64,000 nt of DNA from Carnobacterium gallinarum DSM 4847 (GTDB lineage Bacteria > Bacillota > Bacilli > Lactobacillales > Carnobacteriaceae). Under the pieces are notes generated by a model, which had not been told where the DNA came from, searched no databases, and worked only from the letters and a program-made list of their open reading frames with translations. Below, in pieces: positions 6,745-33,369 of this stretch (its first letter is position 1; each line of letters begins with the position of its first letter). The translations under genes were made by a program, and so were the position numbers. Location: the NCBI RefSeq assembly GCF_000744375.1, contig NZ_JQLU01000005.1:2093496-2157495 (forward strand). Direction: 5' to 3'.

Positions 6745-7344
6745 GTGGAATTGAAACAATTTGACGGTATGAAAAAAGAAGAATTGTCAATGATTGAAGT
6801 AGCTCATGCCATTTTAGAAGAAAAAGGAGATGTCATGGAATTTTCTGATGTAACAACAGCCATTCAGAAATACTTAGGCATTACCGCTGGCAAAATGAAA
6901 AAAAATACACCCCAATTTTATACAGATTTAAATATTGATGGAAGCTTTATTTCTCTAGGTGAAAATCGCTGGGGTTTACGTTCATGGTTCCCAATTGATT
7001 CAATTGATGAAGAAGTATCTCACTCAAATGATGAAGAAGATGAGGTTCCACGTCGTAAGAAGCGTAAGAAAGTTAGTGCTTTTGTTCCCGATGGCGACGA
7101 TGTAATTGACTATAATGATGACGATCCAGAAGATGAGGATGTTGTTTTAGTTGATGAAGAAGGCGTTGTAATTGATGATGACGAAGAAGAAGTTGAACAA
7201 TATAAATCTGATTTAACTGAACTTGGTGCGGATGAAGATGAAGAAGATGACTTGCCAGACGGCATTGAAGGCTCATTAACCTTAATCGATGAAGATGATG
7301 ACGAAGATGATGATTACACTGAAGACGAAGATGAAACAATCTAA
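6745..7344 (+). CDS. rpoE: DNA-directed RNA polymerase delta subunit
   Basis: The N-terminal HARE-HTH domain ([30 protein letters not shown] ... [25 protein letters not shown]) is followed by a basic patch RRKKRKK and a C-terminal tail of about 90 residues dominated by Asp and Glu, the hallmark of Gram-positive delta. Delta binds RNA polymerase, displaces nucleic acids and speeds recycling. I choose GTG at 6745, since AAAGGA lies 10 bases upstream; a GTG at 6736 is too close to that site. The acidic tail is encoded by a GA-rich repeat-like stretch. The gene directly precedes pyrG, the classical Bacillus order. Confidence 0.95.
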
Positions 7345-7415
7345 TCTTTAATTTCAATCATATATCTATTTCTATCGTTATTTTATATGGAAATTAAAAG
7401 AAAAAAATAAATATC

Positions 7416-7444
7416 TTGACGAGTGCGTCATTAGATTGTATTAT
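7416..7444 (+). promoter_or_regulatory. pyrG promoter with GGG initiation site
   Basis: TTGACG (7416-7421), a 17-base spacer and TATTAT (7439-7444) are followed seven bases later by GGGCTCCC starting at 7452. Starting transcription at a GGGC run just before the first C is the arrangement known for pyrG in Bacillus subtilis, where scarce CTP causes repeated G addition. Confidence 0.8.
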
Positions 7445-7451
7445 CTTTATT

Positions 7452-7544
7452 GGGCTCCCTAAAGAGAAATCTTAAAGGACCGATAAGATAAAATGATATC
7501 TAAGCTCCCTATTCATTAGTGAATGGGGAGCTTTGTTTTGTTTT
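7452..7544 (+). promoter_or_regulatory. pyrG leader: CTP-sensitive reiterative-transcription attenuator
   Basis: The predicted transcript begins GGGCUCCC. At 7502-7533 a terminator hairpin forms, with arms AAGCTCCCTATTCA and TGAATGGGGAGCTT around TTAG, followed by TTTGTTTTGTTTTTTT. In the known B. subtilis mechanism extra Gs added at +1 under low CTP pair with the CU-rich 5' arm of this terminator and allow read-through. Every element needed is visible here; activity is inferred from the family. Confidence 0.78.
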
Positions 7545-7798
7545 TTTAGCAGATGAAACCCAGATAAACCAGCGGGGAATTAAAAAACATCTTAAAAATC
7601 AGATGTTGCTTTAAGTGCCAAACGAAATCTATCAGTAATTGTTATTTATTTTTAGATTGAGGAGCTTAAGTTTTTGATTACTTAAAAATTTAACGAAAAA
7701 GGGAGTGAAAGCAACAAGTTTGATACTGGTTTGTCAATAAACAATTAATTTATTGATTTTAATGAAACACAACACTAAAAAAGAAGGAGTTCGATTTA
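7545..7798 (+). other. pyrG 5' untranslated segment
   Basis: About 250 bases between the attenuator and the pyrG start hold no credible gene. The only clear signal is AGAAGGAG before the ATG at 7799. Confidence 0.6.
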
Positions 7799-9397
7799 AT
7801 GACCAAGTATATTTTTGTAACAGGCGGCGTTGTATCTTCAATAGGAAAGGGCATTGTGGCAGCTTCTTTAGGCCGATTGCTGAAAAATCGTGGATTAAAG
7901 GTAACCATTCAAAAATTTGATCCATACATTAACGTTGATCCAGGTACAATGAGTCCTTATCAACATGGGGAAGTTTTTGTAACCGATGATGGTGCGGAAA
8001 CTGATTTAGATTTAGGTCATTATGAACGTTTTATTGATATCAATTTAAATAAATATTCAAATGTAACCACAGGAAAAGTGTACTCTGAAGTGTTACGTAA
8101 AGAACGTAAAGGGGAGTATCTAGGCGCAACGGTTCAAGTTATTCCTCACATCACGAATGAAATCAAAGAAAAAATTATGCGTGCTGCCCAAACAACAGAT
8201 GCGGATATTATTATCACAGAAGTTGGTGGAACGGTTGGGGATATTGAATCATTGCCATTTTTAGAAGCATTGCGTCAAATGAAAGCTGATGTTGGTTCTG
8301 AAAATGTGATGTATATTCACACAACATTAATTCCATATTTAAAAGCCGCTGGTGAAATGAAAACTAAACCAACTCAACATAGCGTGAAAGAGCTACGTAG
8401 TTTGGGGATTCAACCAAATATTTTAGTAGTTCGTACTGAAAAACCAGTAGCACAAAATGTGAAAGACAAACTAGCTTCATTCTGTGATGTCAATCCTGAA
8501 GCAGTTATTGAGTCTCGTGATGTAGAAACACTTTATTCAATTCCATTGGCCCTACAAGCTCAAGGAATGGATCAAATCGTCTGCGATCATTTGAAAATAG
8601 ATGCCCCTGTTGCGGATATGACGGAATGGATTCAATTGGAAGAAAAAGTATTGAGCTTGAAGAAAACAACAAGAATTGCGTTAGTTGGGAAATACGTTGA
8701 GTTACCAGATGCGTATTTATCAGTAGTTGAAGCTTTGAAACATGCTGGATTTACCTATGATTCTGATATTGAGATTGACTGGGTGAATGCAGAACACGTG
8801 ACAACGGAAAACGTTGCTAGCTTATTAAAAACTGCAGATGGAATCTTAGTTCCAGGTGGATTTGGTGATCGAGGGTTAGAAGGAAAAATTGCAGCGATTC
8901 AATATGCCCGCGAAAGTAAAGTACCATTTTTAGGCATCTGTCTAGGAATGCAATTGGCTTGTGTTGAGTTTGCTCGTAATGTTGTTGGATTAGAAGATGC
9001 AGATTCTGCTGAAACGAAACCGGATTGCCAAAATAATATTATTGATTTAATGAGCGACCAAGAAAATGTTGAAAATCTTGGTGGAACGTTACGTTTAGGA
9101 TTGTATCCATGTCAATTAACTCCAGGCTCTGTTGCCGCAAAAGCCTATGATAATGCTGAAGTGGTTGAAGAACGTCATCGTCATCGCTACGAATTTAACA
9201 ATGATTACCGTCAACAATTAACAGATGCAGGGTTAGTATTCTCTGGTTTATCACCAGATGGTCGTTTAGTTGAGATTGTTGAACTTGAAGATCATCCATT
9301 TTATGTTGCGTGTCAATTCCATCCAGAATTAATTTCACGTCCAACACGTCCCCAAAAATTATTTAAAGCTTTTGTTGGTGCAACATTAGCTAAATAA
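7799..9397 (+). CDS. pyrG: CTP synthase
   Basis: The 532-residue enzyme aminates UTP to CTP with glutamine. The N-terminal synthetase domain begins [24 protein letters not shown] (P-loop) and has [40 protein letters not shown]. The C-terminal class I glutamine amidotransferase domain has GGFGDRG, the nucleophile elbow [11 protein letters not shown] and the His/Glu pair in CQFHPELIS. Length is normal. It is preceded by its own promoter and a CTP-sensing leader and followed by a strong hairpin terminator, so it is transcribed alone. Unlike Bacillus there is no fba gene between pyrG and murA. Confidence 0.97.
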
Positions 9398-24113: not shown

Positions 24114-25415
24114 ATGAGAATGGTGGACCTAATTGAGAAAAAACGTGACGGGCATGAACTCACGAATACAGAAATTAACTTTATTGTAACAGGATATACA
24201 AATGGGGAAATTCCAGATTACCAGATGAGTGCTTTAGCAATGGCTATTTTCTTTCAAGATATGACAAATGAAGAAATTGCTAACTTAACCTTAGCAATGG
24301 CTAATTCAGGTGAAATAATTGATTTATCAGCTATTCATGGTATTAAAGTAGATAAACATTCAACTGGTGGAGTTGGTGATACAACAACGATTGTATTAGC
24401 TCCATTGGTAGCAGCTGTGGGTGTACCCGTTGCTAAGATGTCTGGTCGAGGCTTAGGTCACACAGGTGGCACAATTGATAAACTTGAAGCCATTCCTGGT
24501 TTTAATGTTGAAATTTCAAATGAAGAGTTTATTGAATTTGTCAATCGCGATAAGGTTGCAGTTATTGGACAATCAGGTGATTTAGCTCCAGCTGATAAAA
24601 AATTATATGCTTTGCGTGACGTTACAGGAACTGTCGATTCAATTCCTTTGATAGCTAGCTCTATTATGAGTAAAAAAATTGCAGCGGGGGCAGATGCTAT
24701 CGTTTTAGATGTAACTACTGGCGATGGTGCCTTCATGAAAAATCAAAAAGATGCTGAACGTTTAGCAAAAACAATGGTGCAAATTGGTAAGTTAGCCAAT
24801 CGTCAAACAATGGCTATTATTTCGGATATGTCTCAACCACTAGGCTTAGCCATTGGAAATTCATTAGAAATCAAAGAAGCAATTGATGCATTAAATGGGA
24901 ATGGTCCAGCAGATTTAATGGAGATGGTCTATGTTTTAGGCAGTCAAATGGTTGTCTTAGCTAAAAAAGCTGAAAATTTAGCAGATGCTCGTACTATGTT
25001 AGAAGAAGCGATTGTTTCTGGTGCGGCCATTCAAAAATTTAAAGAAATGGTTCAAAATCAAGGTGGCGACAGCACGGTGATTGATCATCCTGAAAAACTG
25101 CCACAAGCGGAATATCAGATTGTATTGCCAGCAAAAGAAGCTGGAGTAATCTCAAAAATGGTTGCCGATCAATTAGGAATAGCAGCAATGTTGCTAGGAG
25201 CAGGCCGTCGAACAAAAGAAGATCAAATTGATTTTTCAGTAGGTTTGATGTTGCATAAAAAAGTTGGAGACAAGGTTGCTATTGGTGAACCATTAGTGAC
25301 GGTTTATGCGAATTCAGAAGAGATAGAAGAAGTAAAAAATAAAATTTATGCAAGTATCACAGTGGCTGAAAATGCAGAGGAGCCAATTTTAATTCATCAG
25401 ATTATTACAGAATAA
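24114..25415 (+). CDS. pdp: pyrimidine-nucleoside phosphorylase
   Basis: The enzyme phosphorolyses uridine and thymidine to base and (deoxy)ribose-1-phosphate. It begins [47 protein letters not shown] and has the phosphorylase signature [46 protein letters not shown] and [31 protein letters not shown] lies nine bases before ATG 24114; an ATG at 24090 lies upstream of it. Length 433 is normal. It stands alone, without the deo genes (deoC, nupC) that often accompany it, and behind a LacI-type operator. Confidence 0.95.
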
Positions 25416-25465
25416 ATAAAAAGGCGTAAGTTCGTGTGAGGCGAAGAACTTACGCTATTTATTTT
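25413..25465 (+). terminator. terminator after pdp
   Basis: GCGTAAGTTC (25424-25433) pairs with GAACTTACGC (25446-25455), flanked by AAATAAAAA and TATTTATTTT. Confidence 0.85.
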
Positions 25466-25795
25466 GCTAAAATAGACAATCAATACCTAATTTCTTTAAG
25501 AAATTAATCAGGTGATATTTCTAGAAAACATAAATATTGTTAAAATAGTGTTAATATAGTATGATATTAATTATTAAATGTTATCTATATGATTTTAAGG
25601 ATGTGAGGCAATTTCACGAGGGGTTAGCAGCTGTTTTAATAGTTGTAAAAAAGTATAAGTATTCATTTGTATTAAAAATAATCAATAGATGAGGAAGAAT
25701 CCGAGCGTTTATTTTAGGGGTAGAATAAGATAGAAAATCCAATTTGGAGAATCTTGTTTAGGGATTATAAAAATTACTTATGTATATAACTAAAT
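25466..25795. other. intergenic region without a supported gene
   Basis: About 330 AT-rich bases between the pdp terminator and the terminator of the peptide gene. A 28-codon frame from GTG 25603 has its ribosome-site-like AAGGA only one base away and is not supported. Confidence 0.5.
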
Positions 25796-25830
25796 AAAAA
25801 AGCTGAAAATATGCTTCATACTTCCAGCTT
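25796..25830 (-). terminator. terminator of the peptide gene
   Basis: Read on the minus strand, AAGCTG and CAGCTT with an inner TATG/CATA stem are followed by T5, thirteen bases after the stop of the short peptide gene. It shows that the peptide gene is a complete transcription unit. Confidence 0.7.
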
Positions 25831-25842
25831 AATAAAAATGAT

Positions 25843-25914
25843 TTAACCAAAATCAAGGTTGCCGTAAGGTGTAATTGGTGATAATTGAGTAATAATAATT
25901 TCTTCAATAGTCAT
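25843..25914 (-). CDS. 23-residue peptide, putative signal for the adjacent RRNPP regulator
   Basis: This short frame starts MTIEEIIITQ and ends ITPYGNLDFG. Support for it being real comes from AAAAAAGGAGGAG with ideal spacing to the ATG, a hairpin terminator right after the stop, and a divergent position to a PlcR-like regulator with a shared inverted repeat in between. It has no signal peptide and no Cys; the middle is hydrophobic, the C-terminus Pro/Tyr/Gly rich. Known RRNPP systems use short peptides encoded beside the receptor, some of them leaderless, so a pheromone role is likely. A small target peptide of other function is the alternative. I do not recognise the sequence. Confidence 0.6.
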   Translation of the reverse strand: MTIEEIIITQLSPITPYGNLDFG

Positions 25915-25957
25915 GGGAACTCCTCCTTTTTTAACAGTGTAATTTTAAAATACACCA

Positions 25958-25996
25958 TTAATATTTTGTATTTAATATTTAATACAACTCTATAAT
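25958..25996. promoter_or_regulatory. inverted repeat between the divergent peptide and regulator promoters
   Basis: Arms TTGTATT (25966-25972) and AATACAA (25981-25987) flank eight AT bases; the whole 22-base stretch is palindromic except for two positions. TATAAT at 25991-25996 is a likely -10 of the regulator. On the minus strand TTGTAT (25982-25987) and TATTAA (25958-25963), 18 bases apart, fit a promoter for the peptide gene. The repeat therefore overlaps both promoters and is a good regulator operator. Confidence 0.55.
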
Positions 25997-26056
25997 ATAA
26001 CATTAAGGTACTATTATGCAAGTATATAAACAATATAATTGAAAGGATATGATTAA

Positions 26057-26947
26057 ATGGGACATTTGGGAGGAAAAATAAAAGAAATTCGTTTGATAAA
26101 AGGAATTACACAAAGAGAGCTTGCTGAGGGAATTTGTACACAAGCCACTATTAGTAATTTAGAAAATGAAACGAGTTTACCATCGTTATCGATTTTACTA
26201 TCGATTGCCGATCGCTTGAATATTGATTTTAGTGAAATTTATGAATATATCGCAATTAATGGGAACAGCTATTCTGAAATATTTAAACGAGTTCGTGTGA
26301 TGTGTGGACAAAGAAAACATAAAGAAGCCTATGATTTAATTAAAGAAAAAATTGAGTTTGACAAACTTGGAACACCATATGAGTTAAAACAATACTACTA
26401 CTATATTGGTATTACAAACTTAATTGGTTTCAAAAACTATTCAGATGCTCACTATTATTTTAATTTAGCTTTGTCGACAGTCGTTGGAAAGAACCTAGAC
26501 TTCTTAGATGTACTGGCAACGAACGGAATAGGTGTTGCTTATTTAATGGATAATGAACTAGAAAAAGCCCGAACTTACTTTGAAAAATCATTGGTTCAGC
26601 TAAATGAAATCATCGGGACAAGTAATAGTCTTCAAGATAGTCTTGAAATAACTAAAATTTACTACAATACTGCAAAATTCTATTCAAGTGTTGAAGATTA
26701 CGAAAAAGCAATTCAACTGTCAACATTGGGAATTGACTTATTGCACCGTGAAAATTTATCTTACTATTTAGATTTTCTTTTATATGAAAAAGGTTTTAAT
26801 CTAATGAAATTAGGTGAAAAAACAGAAGCTAGTGAATATTATTTCTACGCGGCAGCAATGGCAAAATTAAACAATAATGAACATGCGATTGAGGGCATTA
26901 AAGCGGATATGAAAAAATATAAAATTCCAAGCTACAAATATTCATAA
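26057..26947 (+). CDS. PlcR-like RRNPP transcriptional regulator (HTH_XRE plus TPR)
   Basis: The N-terminus (IKEIRLIKGITQRELAEGICTQATISNLENETSLPSLSILLSIADRL) is an XRE-type helix-turn-helix with the GICTQATIS motif typical of PlcR/PrgX/Rgg-like regulators. The rest is a series of TPR helices (YYYYIGITNLIGFKNYSDAHYYFNLAL, NGIGVAYLMDNELEKARTYFEKSLVQL, YYNTAKFYSSVEDYEKAIQLS, YLDFLLYEKGFNLMKLGEKTEASEYYFYAA). These proteins bind imported peptides in the TPR concave surface. AAAGGA precedes the ATG. A peptide gene is divergent 142 bases away, and a paralogue lies at 32488-33369. Length is 296 residues, normal for the family. Confidence 0.9.
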   Translation: MGHLGGKIKEIRLIKGITQRELAEGICTQATISNLENETSLPSLSILLSIADRLNIDFSEIYEYIAINGNSYSEIFKRVRVMCGQRKHKEAYDLIKEKIEFDKLGTPYELKQYYYYIGITNLIGFKNYSDAHYYFNLALSTVVGKNLDFLDVLATNGIGVAYLMDNELEKARTYFEKSLVQLNEIIGTSNSLQDSLEITKIYYNTAKFYSSVEDYEKAIQLSTLGIDLLHRENLSYYLDFLLYEKGFNLMKLGEKTEASEYYFYAAAMAKLNNNEHAIEGIKADMKKYKIPSYKYS

Positions 26948-26953
26948 ACTAAT

Positions 26954-26998
26954 AAAATACATCACTGACAAGGATACTTTCAGTGGTGTATTTTATTT
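26954..26998 (+). terminator. terminator after the RRNPP regulator
   Basis: AAAATACATCACTGA and TCAGTGGTGTATTTT form a 15-bp stem with an 11-base loop and T-rich tail. Confidence 0.85.
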
Positions 26999-27089
26999 TA
27001 AAATAACACCTAGTAGGAAATTAATAGAAGCCTGATTAAGAATTGTAATTTATTGACTGATGTAATTAGATTTAAATTCGTTAAACTAG

Positions 27090-27118
27090 CCTATCTACTT
27101 GAAATAGAGGTAGATAGG
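27090..27118. repeat. 9-bp inverted repeat of unknown role
   Basis: CCTATCTAC (27090-27098) and GTAGATAGG (27110-27118) are perfect inverted copies with an 11-base spacer and no T tract. No gene is seen between 26999 and 27155. Confidence 0.4.
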
Positions 27119-27155
27119 ACTTACGATGACTCCAGAAGGAAATTAAAGTTAATTT

Positions 27156-27198
27156 AAAAATCCCTGTAAGCTCATTTTATTGAGTTTACAGGGATTTT
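27156..27198 (-). terminator. terminator of the MBL-fold gene
   Basis: AAAATCCCTGTAAGCTCA and TGAGTTTACAGGGATTTT pair with one mismatch around TTTTAT, next to the stop codon of the minus-strand gene; symmetric A and T tracts make it bidirectional. Confidence 0.8.
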
Positions 27199-27199
27199 G

Positions 27200-27814
27200 T
27201 TAATTGAAATGCGGATTAGTAGTTTTTTCAATACCAATCGTTGTATCGTCGCCATGACCAGGATAAACAACCAAGTTATCTGGCAAAGTGAATAGTTCTG
27301 TGTTGATAGATTCGATTAATTGTTGAAAACTAGCATTTGGTAAATCTGTTCGTCCAATACTGCCTTTAAATAAAGCATCGCCAACAACTACAAAATCATC
27401 AAAAATAAAACTAACACTACCAATAGAATGGCCAGGAGTTGGGACAACTTTAAATTGAATTCCTTCCAAGTCGTATTTTTGATAGGCTAAATCAAATTCA
27501 GCAGGATTGGCAATAACCGATTGACCAAAACGTTCAGATAGATTTAACTCTGGTGAACCTAACCAAGATTGTTCAGCTGGATCAATATAAACAGGAATCT
27601 TAAAATGGTTGCGAATGTCTTCAAGGGCACCAATGTGGTCAAAATGTGCATGTGTAAGTAAAATAGCTACAGGAGTAACAGCCAAAGTTGCAATCGTAGC
27701 AATGATTTTATCCGCATCATTACCTGGATCAACAACGATACAATTTTTTTGATTTGAGAGGATATAACAATTTTCTTCAATAGTACCAGTCTTAATTCGT
27801 ATTACCTTCAACAT
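27200..27814 (-). CDS. MBL-fold metallohydrolase (glyoxalase II-like)
   Basis: The 204-residue protein has CIVVDPGNDADKI, the metal-binding motif LLTHAHFDHIGALEDI, PTPGHSIGSVSF, VVVGDALFKGSIGRTDLP and VYPGHGDDTTIGIE, the standard zinc ligands of glyoxalase II-like hydrolases (YqgX/GloB2 type). It would hydrolyse a thioester such as S-lactoyl-thiol. ATG 27814 is chosen because GAAGGTGG lies eight bases upstream; the frame is open to 27892. Single-gene unit with its own terminator. Confidence 0.88.
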   Translation of the reverse strand: MLKVIRIKTGTIEENCYILSNQKNCIVVDPGNDADKIIATIATLAVTPVAILLTHAHFDHIGALEDIRNHFKIPVYIDPAEQSWLGSPELNLSERFGQSVIANPAEFDLAYQKYDLEGIQFKVVPTPGHSIGSVSFIFDDFVVVGDALFKGSIGRTDLPNASFQQLIESINTELFTLPDNLVVYPGHGDDTTIGIEKTTNPHFN

Positions 27815-29879: not shown

Positions 29880-29908
29880 CAGAGTAGATTTTCTACTCTG
29901 TTTTTTTA
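29880..29908 (+). terminator. terminator inside the left end of the IS, facing incoming transcripts
   Basis: CAGAGTAGA and TCTACTCTG pair around TTT and are followed by T7 on the plus strand. It would stop transcription entering from the left and prevent antisense RNA over the transposase. Confidence 0.7.
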
Positions 29909-30841
29909 CGCAGTTAAACTCATTTTCTTTCTAAATTGAACTGGGCTTAGCCAGTCTAATTTTTCTTTTATTCGAGAATGATTATAGTACTCTATATAGT
30001 GTTCAATCGCTTGTTTTAATTCTTGGTAGCTTTTGTAGATAACGCCATGGTAAAGTTCTTGTTTGAGAATACTAAAGAAATTCTCCATAGGAGAATTATC
30101 TAAGCAGTTTCCCTTACGAGACATACTTTGAAAAATATGATGCTTTTTTAATTCATGGCTATAGGCTTTCATTTGGTATCCCCATCCTTGGTCGGAATGG
30201 AACGTTCGGCGATAGAGGCAATCATTCGTTTTCACAATAGCTCCATTTAATGCATCCATAATCGCTTTTGCTGTAGGTTTCTCTGAAATTGAGTAAGAGA
30301 CAATCTCGCTATTATACATATCCATGAACGGGTTTAGATAGAGTTTCTTAATACGCAAACTACCCGAGTGATCTTTTTCATAATACTTAAATTCTGTTGT
30401 ATCTGTTGTCATTTTTTGATGAACAATACTTGTATAAAAATGACGATGAATCCGATTTTTTGCCACTCTCCCAACAGTTCCTTTATAGGAATTGTATTTC
30501 CGTGATTTCCGTGTGAATGAGCGTACCAAGATTCCTAATTTTTTCATTAAACGTTGCACTTTCTTTTTATTCACAAGGATACCACGGTTTCTAAGTTCTT
30601 GATTCATCCGACGATAGCCATAATCCTTATGTTCGTGATGAATTTTTTCCATTTCTTGTTCAATTGGTTTATCTGGATTTTCACGGTTAAAGCGTTTTTG
30701 CCAATACATATAGGTTGACCTAGGAAACCCTAGGGTTTCAAGAATGTCGATTAATCTGAATTTCCCTCGGAGGCTATGAATGATTCGTGCTTGTTTTTCT
30801 GTTGCTGTTCCATCAAACGCAACCTCCTTAATTCTTTTAAA
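29906..30841 (-). CDS. IS3-family transposase OrfB (rve integrase core), made by -1 frameshift
   Basis: The protein has an HTH_21 region (EMEKIHHEHKDYGYRRMNQELRNRGILVNKKKVQRLMKKLGI) and the DDE integrase core: TTDTTEFKYY (first D), HSDQGWGYQ (second D) and CLDNSPMENFFSILKQELYHG (E). A plain ATG occurs at 30709, but the frame continues upstream through EKQARIIHSLRGKFRLIDILETLGFPRSTY to the heptamer T TTA AAA at 30835-30841. There orfA can slip -1 into this frame to give the OrfAB transposase. The reading frame is intact to its stop. Confidence 0.88.
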   Translation of the reverse strand, partial: FKRIKEVAFDGTATEKQARIIHSLRGKFRLIDILETLGFPRSTYMYWQKRFNRENPDKPIEQEMEKIHHEHKDYGYRRMNQELRNRGILVNKKKVQRLMKKLGILVRSFTRKSRKYNSYKGTVGRVAKNRIHRHFYTSIVHQKMTTDTTEFKYYEKDHSGSLRIKKLYLNPFMDMYNSEIVSYSISEKPTAKAIMDALNGAIVKTNDCLYRRTFHSDQGWGYQMKAYSHELKKHHIFQSMSRKGNCLDNSPMENFFSILKQELYHGVIYKSYQELKQAIEHYIEYYNHSRIKEKLDWLSPVQFRKKMSLTA

Positions 30842-31311
30842 TAGGCAAGTTCAATTTTTAACTGTAGATTTTCTTTCTCTAGCGCTTCTAAATAGGTTAA
30901 CTCTTTTTTTGAAGAATCAATAGCTGGTAATTTATTCTTTTTTTTAGGCATTTTAGATGGACGTCCTTTCGGTTGTGAGAGCCCATCTACTCCATTTTCT
31001 TGGTAAGCTTTACGCCAATTGGCAATCATAGAAAAATTGGTCATTCCAAACTGATTGGCAACTTCTCGATAGGACATCTCTGTTGTTAGATATAACTCTA
31101 TCGCATCTAACTTGAATTGAACAGAATAAGTTTTATTTTGGCGACTACGAAGTAGACCTTCCTCACCAAATTCTTTGTACGTATTTATCCAAATTTGTAC
31201 TTGAGAGATTCCTTTAATGCCATATTTTTTAGCTAAATACTTCATTCCACCTTCTCCATTTAAATAGTTTTGTACAACGTTCATCTTAAATTCTGTGCTA
31301 TATTTTGCCAT
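30751..31311 (-). CDS. IS3-family transposase OrfA
   Basis: The 186-residue protein starts MAKYSTEFKMNVVQNYLNGEGGMKYLAKKYGIKGISQVQIWINTYKEFGEEGL, an HTH of the IS3 OrfA type. A second HTH follows (FKLDAIELYLTTEMSYREVANQFGMTNFSMIANWRKAYQENGVDGL), then a leucine-zipper-like end (LEALEKENLQLKIELAYLKELRRL). Double HTH is typical of the IS150 group. ATG 31311 is the family start; the frame is open to 31368 across the terminal repeat. The T TTA AAA slippery site lies within the coiled-coil codons. Confidence 0.88.
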   Translation of the reverse strand: MAKYSTEFKMNVVQNYLNGEGGMKYLAKKYGIKGISQVQIWINTYKEFGEEGLLRSRQNKTYSVQFKLDAIELYLTTEMSYREVANQFGMTNFSMIANWRKAYQENGVDGLSQPKGRPSKMPKKKNKLPAIDSSKKELTYLEALEKENLQLKIELAYLKELRRLRLMEQQQKNKHESFIASEGNSD

Positions 31312-31320
31312 ACAAAAAGA

Positions 31321-31360
31321 CCCCCAAAAGTTAGATTTTTTAGGTCTAACTTTTGGGGGG
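31321..31360. repeat. perfect hairpin at the right end of the IS
   Basis: CCCCCAAAAGTTAGA and TCTAACTTTTGGGGG form a 15-bp perfect stem around TTTTTTAGG. It combines the terminal repeat with a nearby inverted copy immediately upstream of orfA. In a transcript that reads in from outside it would fold just before the orfA start and limit its translation. Confidence 0.75.
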
Positions 31361-31421
31361 CGGTACATCTAAGAGTTATTTTTTCTTAGTTTGACTAGTT
31401 TTTTTGCTATCCATAGAGCGT

Positions 31422-32487: not shown

Positions 32488-33369
32488 ATGATTTTAGGTG
32501 ACAAAGTAAAAAAAGCTCGTAAAGCAAAAGGTCTTTCACAAAAAGAAGTTGCCCATGGAATTTGTACTCAAGCAACCATTAGTCAGATGGAAAATCATAA
32601 TAAAGTTCCAACGATGTCAATTTTTGTGAAAATATGTAATCGGTTAGAAGTCTCGCAGGCAGATATTACATCTGAGAACGATTCTGAGATGAATTATCTT
32701 GCATTTTATGAGATTGATCAATTATGTAAGAAGAGGAAGTATCAAGAGGCGTACACGATTTTAACTGAATCAATCGATGAAAAAAAACTAAAAAATGATA
32801 GCGACCAAAAGAAATACTATTACTTTTTAGGGATCATTAACCTATTCAGTTTAAAAAATGGTGAAGAGGCTCTTTTTTATTTTAATCTGGCTCTGACATT
32901 AGATAGTGCTAAAGAGCTGGCAGAGCTAGATATTTTGTTAACAAATAATATTGGTATAGTTTATGAATTAAAACAAGATGTTCAAAAAGCCAAAGTCTAT
33001 TATGATAAATCATTAGAAGATATTCATAAAATAAAAGATAAACTAAACGATAATTTTGATGAAATCACGGGAATTTACTTTAATGTAGCAAAATTTTATT
33101 CTAAATGCCATGAGTATCACAAAGCTATTCGTTTAATTGAAACAGGCATGGACATCTCGATTCATTCAGCGAACTATCATTTATTGGACTCTTTATTATA
33201 TGAAAAGGGTCTTAACCGCTATAAGCTAGAGAAGTCTGTATCTGAAGAAATTAGCAAGGACTATACGTTGTCTTATGCACTCGGTTTGATGAATGCCAAT
33301 CAAGAATTAACTCAGGTTATTGAGCAAGATGCTCTGGAGTTTGGAATCAATTCATTTAACTTTTTTTAA
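32488..33369 (+). CDS. second PlcR-like RRNPP regulator (HTH_XRE plus TPR), paralogue
   Basis: The protein begins MILGDKVKKARKAKGLSQKEVAHGICTQATISQMENHNKVPTMSIFVKICNRLEV and aligns over its length with the regulator at 26057, sharing GICTQATIS and the TPR blocks (YYYFLGIINLFSLKNGEEALFYFNLALTL, NNIGIVYELKQDVQKAKVYYDKSLEDI, YFNVAKFYSKCHEYHKAIRLIETGMDI, LLDSLLYEKGLNRYKLE). ATG 32488 is chosen by alignment with that paralogue; AGGGAG is 15 bases away, so initiation may be weak or use the adjacent TTG. No clear peptide gene is next to it. It ends in FNFF. Confidence 0.85.
   Translation: MILGDKVKKARKAKGLSQKEVAHGICTQATISQMENHNKVPTMSIFVKICNRLEVSQADITSENDSEMNYLAFYEIDQLCKKRKYQEAYTILTESIDEKKLKNDSDQKKYYYFLGIINLFSLKNGEEALFYFNLALTLDSAKELAELDILLTNNIGIVYELKQDVQKAKVYYDKSLEDIHKIKDKLNDNFDEITGIYFNVAKFYSKCHEYHKAIRLIETGMDISIHSANYHLLDSLLYEKGLNRYKLEKSVSEEISKDYTLSYALGLMNANQELTQVIEQDALEFGINSFNFF

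Follow-up and report, generated by a model that had tools for sequence, protein, structure and literature searches.

We analyzed a 64,000-nucleotide stretch of the Carnobacterium gallinarum DSM 4847 genome (hereafter, the window), in which a short candidate peptide gene lies divergently from the gene of a predicted HTH-TPR regulator. The features considered here, in window coordinates, are as follows.

25800-25830, minus strand: terminator-like hairpin and T run, 3' of the peptide gene (computed scan)
25843-25914, minus strand: peptide gene of 23 codons, candidate leaderless pheromone precursor, MTIEEIIITQLSPITPYGNLDFG
25922-25927, minus strand: AGGAGG ribosome-binding site, 7 bases 5' of the peptide ATG
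25966-25987, strand not applicable: 22-base inverted repeat, 10/11 pairs; possible operator, weak
25994-26021, minus strand: possible peptide promoter, TTGCAT (26021-26016), 16 bases, TATATT (25999-25994) (by eye)
26057-26947, plus strand: PlcR-type HTH-TPR regulator, 296 aa, probable receptor (domains, PDB, fold)
26955-26994, strand not applicable: A/T-flanked hairpin 3' of the regulator, probable terminator (by eye)
32494-33363, plus strand: second PlcR-type regulator, 41% identical to the first, 6 kb away (homology search)

An earlier, sequence-only reading of this DNA had described a frame of 23 codons that has an AGGAGG site and its own terminator and lies 142 bases from a divergent HTH-TPR regulator, and the sequence confirms each of these elements. 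An AGGAGG placed 5-9 nt from a start codon occurs at 13 sites in the 64-kb window, and nine of the 13 belong to open frames longer than 100 aa. The hairpin behind the peptide gene is one of two found by the computed scan in 25400-27200, where 0.4 were expected; the one behind the regulator has an 11-base loop, which exceeds the limit of that scan, and is absent from its output. The peptide C-terminus (...TPYGNLDFG) contains a motif that recurs in the family described below.

The regulator carries HTH_3 (E 1.3e-12) and TPR_2 (E 2.3e-9) domains, both above cut-offs, and at 296 aa it has the layout of RRNPP(A) receptors, that is, an N-terminal HTH plus TPR within about 250-500 aa. Among RRNPP proteins in the PDB, PlcR alone is matched at near full length, with E 1.9e-18 for the single sequence and E 3.8e-26 using an 18-row profile. 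The predicted model is all-helical (pLDDT 88), and the top five Foldseek chains are all PlcR, at a query TM of 0.60-0.65 and an rmsd of 8-10 A; ComR and Rgg2 come after them at E about 2e-5. At the sequence level, matches to Rgg and ComR are confined to the N-terminal HTH-bearing part (positions 2-100 for the Rgg2 profile match), and no RopB or Rgg name occurs among the PDB matches to E 1 (single sequence) or the 13 NCBIfam matches to E 1. Judged by sequence and predicted fold, the regulator is PlcR-type; the earlier description of it as PlcR-like is borne out, since both its closest solved relative and its five best Foldseek chains are PlcR.

A residue that may contact the ligand can also be traced. 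Residue N204 of the regulator aligns with PlcR Asn201, in a column that holds Asn in 16 of 18 aligned rows, Thr in the paralogue R6 and His in the paralogue R10 (labels below); N156 is kept in all 18. An Asn that anchors the peptide backbone has been described in RNPP proteins for RapF (Asn227; PMC3601957) and PlcRa (N205; PMC3519770), and PlcR N201 and regulator N204 would be the equivalent residues. R6 is peptide-bearing yet lacks the conserved Asn.

We searched the 4.04-Mb assembly of the same genome (5 contigs) for further regulators of this kind and obtained 17 matches, 11 of which were counted as close paralogues (R1-R11, R1 being the window's regulator). The six matches not counted comprise one broken copy and five distant ones, and four of the six were inspected for peptide frames. 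Identity to R1 ranges from 38 to 60% among R2-R11. Six of the 11 (R1, R4, R5, R6, R7 and R8) have a leaderless frame running divergently from them, which encodes 17-24 aa, has AGGAGG 7-8 nt from its start and begins 88-142 nt from the regulator start; the C-termini found in the genome are TPYGNLDFG, SPFGNIGHS, KPFGDIPYG, SPFGNAPWG, STYTSIGFI and STYGSIGFI. Because similar frames recur at these six paralogues, the window's predicted gene is not a chance frame. The unit in the window is probably a functional signalling pair. The sequence-only reading had named loss of the frame in relatives that keep the regulator as a point against such a pair, and here the outcome is mixed: six paralogues keep the frame, but none was found beside R2, R3, R9, R10 or R11 (5/11), and R2 and R3 are the closest paralogues (60% and 56% identity). 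R10 is identical to a regulator on the C. maltaromaticum plasmid pL21581-2 (L030, L138).

No peptide gene was found beside the second regulator of the window (32494-33363). Between the two PlcR-type regulators, at window positions 29906-31368, lie two frames that resemble an IS3-type transposase pair by eye.

Outside the genome, where one genome per species was compared, we found no orthologue of the window's pair; the best regulators elsewhere reach 53% identity (on a plasmid, nearest to R4) and 48% identity. Related peptide frames are nevertheless found in several groups. Four of six loci in two genus relatives (G001 and G002) carry STYGNISYI or STYGDTPFG, and a divergent peptide frame is present at 17 of 24 loci from the order (L032-L055). 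Among 80 named loci (L056-L135), the frame occurs at 10 of 13 from Enterococcus and at none of 67 from Lactobacillaceae, the latter count comes from scanning no more than 260 bases for frames preceded by a ribosome-binding site, and three of these loci (L102, L116, L130) end early upstream. The frame is also present on the C. maltaromaticum plasmids pL21581-3 and LMA_pa (two of three loci examined, from four such records found) and on the E. faecalis plasmids ES-109, pMP8-1 and pEK4S (all three examined, from 11 such records found). A regulator scan of genome contigs with one sequence gave 80 pattern matches, none of them a relative. The 19 distinct peptides are 17-27 aa long and share a C-terminal motif of about [ST][PT][YF]GNx[GP][HFYW]x, with the final position mostly [VGI]; none of the 19 has Lys or Arg before its last nine residues, and the longest hydrophobic run is at most 5.

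The enterococcal copies are numerous enough to compare the two parts of the peptide. Across 16 distinct copies, mean pN/pS is 0.061 for the last seven codons (14-20) and 0.575 for codons 2-13, a count that leaves out eight copies (L058-L065) identical to ones already included; 13 of the 16 end in exactly YGNTGHV. The enterococcal C-terminus thus appears to be under strong protein-level constraint while the front part drifts, and it is this contrast (0.06 versus 0.58) that leads us to read the C-terminus as the putative pheromone. The same constraint may extend to the window's peptide.

Two further comparisons tie the peptides to the receptors. When 295 genomes of the order were searched with a peptide profile, 12 of them yielded a total of 17 matches at E<=0.001. 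All 17 adjoin these regulators, but many of the 17 had gone into the profile, so that the result is partly circular. With a profile from which the peptides of the own genome were left out, the window's and R4's peptides rank second and third in the six-frame genome with weak scores (E 0.75 and E 0.97); none of the remaining four reached E<=10. Secondly, a tree of 63 regulators places every one of the 37 peptide-bearing rows in one clade of 51, and the 12 rows outside it are without peptide; several branches are long, so that the order inside the peptide clade is unsure. The tree includes 10 of the 67 Lactobacillaceae loci and omits L050 and L051, whose frames are reported to be interrupted by a stop; where two receptors flank one plasmid peptide (three cases), each receptor was counted as peptide-bearing. 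By comparison, the window's predicted peptide is a member of a conserved family of coding genes linked to a clade of PlcR-type receptors. The proposal that the peptide or a C-terminal fragment of it is the ligand fits this picture, in which a conserved coding family appears to travel with PlcR-type receptors and its C-terminus to be selected.

The top match of the leave-out profile (E 0.016) is an orphan frame, SPYGNIPYG, in the same genome (G000:C5:1292523-1292567, minus strand; about 3024-3068 of L160), with no stop after the motif. It adjoins transposase-like sequence (by eye) and is probably a relic of another pair.

The earlier reading had also described the 22-base inverted repeat as overlapping both predicted promoters. 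As an operator it is unsupported. The repeat is marginally beyond chance, with 168 of 5000 dinucleotide shuffles reaching 10/11 pairs in a stretch of 21% GC, and the genome holds no second copy with up to three mismatches allowed; on these two grounds we reject it as a proven operator. The sister pairs examined do not have it as such, a scan of 16 upstream regions gave no common palindrome, and the upstream regions of enterococcal peptide and LPMO genes share only short, AT-rich words. The overlap with both promoters holds for one of them: by eye, the repeat overlaps TTGTAT, a weak -35-like element of the regulator with a 19-base spacer to its TATAAT. With respect to the peptide gene, the repeat sits a short way downstream of TATATT, the best -10, close to where the transcript is expected to start. 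A consensus promoter scan found none wholly inside the 142-base gap.

Other upstream repeats were seen by eye. R4 and R5 have TACA-N6-TGTA in common, within the supposed -35/-10 spacer. Upstream of the peptide gene in the genus relative G001 (L023) is a strong inverted repeat, AGAGATAGTAAAAC...GTTTTGCTATCTCT, placed just behind the supposed peptide -10; the copy in the sister genome G002 is less perfect.

How the pair relates to known peptide-receptor systems can be judged from both partners. As in RRNPP(A) systems, a small peptide gene adjoins the receptor gene, with coding-type conservation in enterococcal relatives and predicted translation. The closest likeness is to PlcR-PapR and PlcRa-PapRa, which share the HTH and TPR receptor, the near full-length match, the best fold and the Asn column. 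The mature peptides PapR7 (ADLPFEF) and PapRa7 (CSIPYEY; both PMC3519770) have P-[FY] in common with the ...TPYGN and ...SPFGN of this family, which we regard as a lead. However, papR is located 3' of plcR and encodes a product exported by Sec (PMC9765709), and PapRa has 93 aa (PMC3519770), whereas the family gene is divergent, encodes 17-27 leaderless residues (23 in the window, with no downstream propeptide gene bearing a Sec signal peptide) and ends in another motif.

SHP and ComS precursors, of about 20 residues, are similar in length to the window's 23-residue peptide. They too lack a Sec leader and carry a C-terminal signal, and they are exported by PptAB; SHPs start with a Lys near the N-terminus, which the window's family lacks, and the receptors belong to another group, matches to Rgg and ComR being limited to the N-terminal part. 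PhrA of Streptococcus carries a Sec leader, unlike the window's peptide; its receptor TprA, likened here by description only, is PlcR-related and likewise from Lactobacillales. TprA has been grouped with PlcR (PMC10075063, PMC12700828).

Leaderless communication peptides (LCPs) resemble the family in having a ribosome-binding site, in often being divergent and in their link to type VII secretion (T7SS), an LCP of E. malodoratus inducing a T7SS effector pair (PMC10518010), which recalls the sister pairs at LXG cassettes described below. Most LCPs are 8-10 aa long and highly hydrophobic and act with RopB-clan receptors, a few being longer (PMC10518010), whereas here the precursors have 17-27 aa, a constrained C-terminus and a PlcR-type receptor. 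We rejected assignment to the RopB-clan LCPs on precursor length and on receptor type, the latter as judged from Rgg2 matches and match names. The absence of a signal peptide had been called unusual, which is overstated: Sec export is not predicted for SHP or PrgQ (PMC10075063), and LCPs are leaderless (PMC10518010). It is unusual in combination with a PlcR-type receptor.

That combination fits neither of two recent accounts: a 2022 survey reports no evidence of PlcR systems in Lactobacillales (PMC9765709), and in a structural phylogeny from 2025 peptides that are leaderless or non-Sec are associated with the PrgX-TraA-ComR-Rgg branch (PMC12700828). Our literature search found no description of the peptide-receptor family and no match to six of the peptide strings, although the supplementary tables of the RRNPP surveys may list members; we also found no literature on RRNPP systems in Carnobacterium. 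Surveys that require a Sec leader may miss a family that pairs a PlcR-type receptor with a leaderless peptide.

A likeness to PrgX-PrgQ and TraA-iPD1 is that some of the homologous pairs are carried by E. faecalis plasmids, next to repA. In classical pheromone plasmids prgX and prgQ adjoin repA, so the pairs occupy a like place; they differ in having two PlcR-type receptors around one leaderless peptide gene. On ES-109, pMP8-1 and pEK4S (L139, L140, L141), at about 6900-8900, two divergent PlcR-type regulators flank a single peptide gene next to repA, and the peptides end in ...TYGNLPHV or ...SPYGNLPHV. A gene annotated prgN lies within about 4 kb of the pair in two of the three plasmids (ES-109 and pEK4S). 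No prgX or prgQ label occurs among the pEK4S features seen, which reflects annotation only, from an incomplete gene table.

Taken together, we consider it likely that the locus is a self-contained peptide-signalling pair, with a leaderless precursor, a C-terminal pheromone and a PlcR-type receptor. The divergent gene would produce a 23-residue precursor without a Sec leader, which would leave the cell by a non-Sec route (PptAB/Ecs-like, or that of leaderless peptides) and be trimmed to its C-terminal 7-9 residues, about PYGNLDFG. An Opp permease would import the trimmed peptide, and the regulator, binding it in its TPR groove, would then switch targets that perhaps include the adjacent divergent peptide promoter itself. 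The genome encodes EcsB, a TIGR00054 (Eep-like) protease and seven OppA-like binding proteins, which is permissive only.

The peptide might instead bind the regulator inside the producer without export, in self-sensing, timing or as a co-regulator, rather than between cells. The lack of a Sec-like start, the lack of basic residues before the last nine in 19/19 peptides and the lack of an obvious transporter gene beside the pair (by eye) all suit such a role. We nonetheless think it unlikely: leaderless peptides serve as intercellular signals with RopB-clan receptors (PMC10518010), the C-terminal constraint resembles that of a trimmed pheromone, and the EcsB, protease and OppA-like proteins just listed are at hand. 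It is very unlikely that the small gene is a regulator-controlled effector, bacteriocin-like or toxin-like, rather than the ligand. Its own terminator would suit an effector, and divergent regulator-target layouts are common; yet the last seven residues are nearly invariant in the 16 enterococcal copies, as in a ligand, the motif follows the receptor clade, as a ligand should, and no immunity or export gene is seen at the window's pair by eye. That the frame is a chance or leader frame 5' of the regulator, or belongs to a small RNA, is strongly disfavoured and scarcely credible, for although it is short, AT-rich and missing at the two closest paralogues, it has an AGGAGG site and a terminator, it recurs, and its enterococcal members vary in the manner of coding sequence.

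For the signalling pair, the genes next to its relatives suggest what may be controlled. The enterococcal YGNTGHV pairs (L034-L048, L066) precede predicted genes for an LPMO and a GH18 chitinase, located at about 850-2330 counted from the start of the regulator: the LPMO-type marker HGY[VI] follows the regulator at 16/16 loci and a GH18-type marker (GYWHNW-like) at 15/16, with both domains confirmed by Pfam at one locus (L046). In the own genome, T7SS LXG-toxin cassettes (PF04740) lie downstream of R4, R7 and R8 (L153, L156, L157) at a distance of 0.5-0.8 kb. R6 adjoins an M60 peptidase, beyond which there is an LXG gene, R5 adjoins a MucBP surface protein, and a full EssC is encoded in the genome. 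Because sister pairs lie upstream of LXG-toxin cassettes or LPMO-chitinase genes, control of secreted antagonism or digestion seems the likeliest output of the family. At the window's pair there is no such adjacent target, the neighbours being pyrimidine-nucleoside phosphorylase-like and metallo-hydrolase-like genes (by eye).

A broader proposal, which we advance tentatively as possible rather than probable, is that [ST][PT][YF]GN... leaderless pheromones and their own PlcR-type receptors form a general signalling kit in Carnobacterium and Enterococcus. In this view the kit would control type VII toxins and the digestion of chitin, and on certain E. faecalis plasmids it would operate a two-receptor/one-peptide switch with a possible role in governing transfer. 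The family can be tested with short synthetic peptides, the likely outputs being chitinolysis, LXG toxins and plasmid functions. Separately, we noted by eye that the enterococcal LPMO promoters also have a CcpA-like site, for instance TTGTAAGCGCTACAA.
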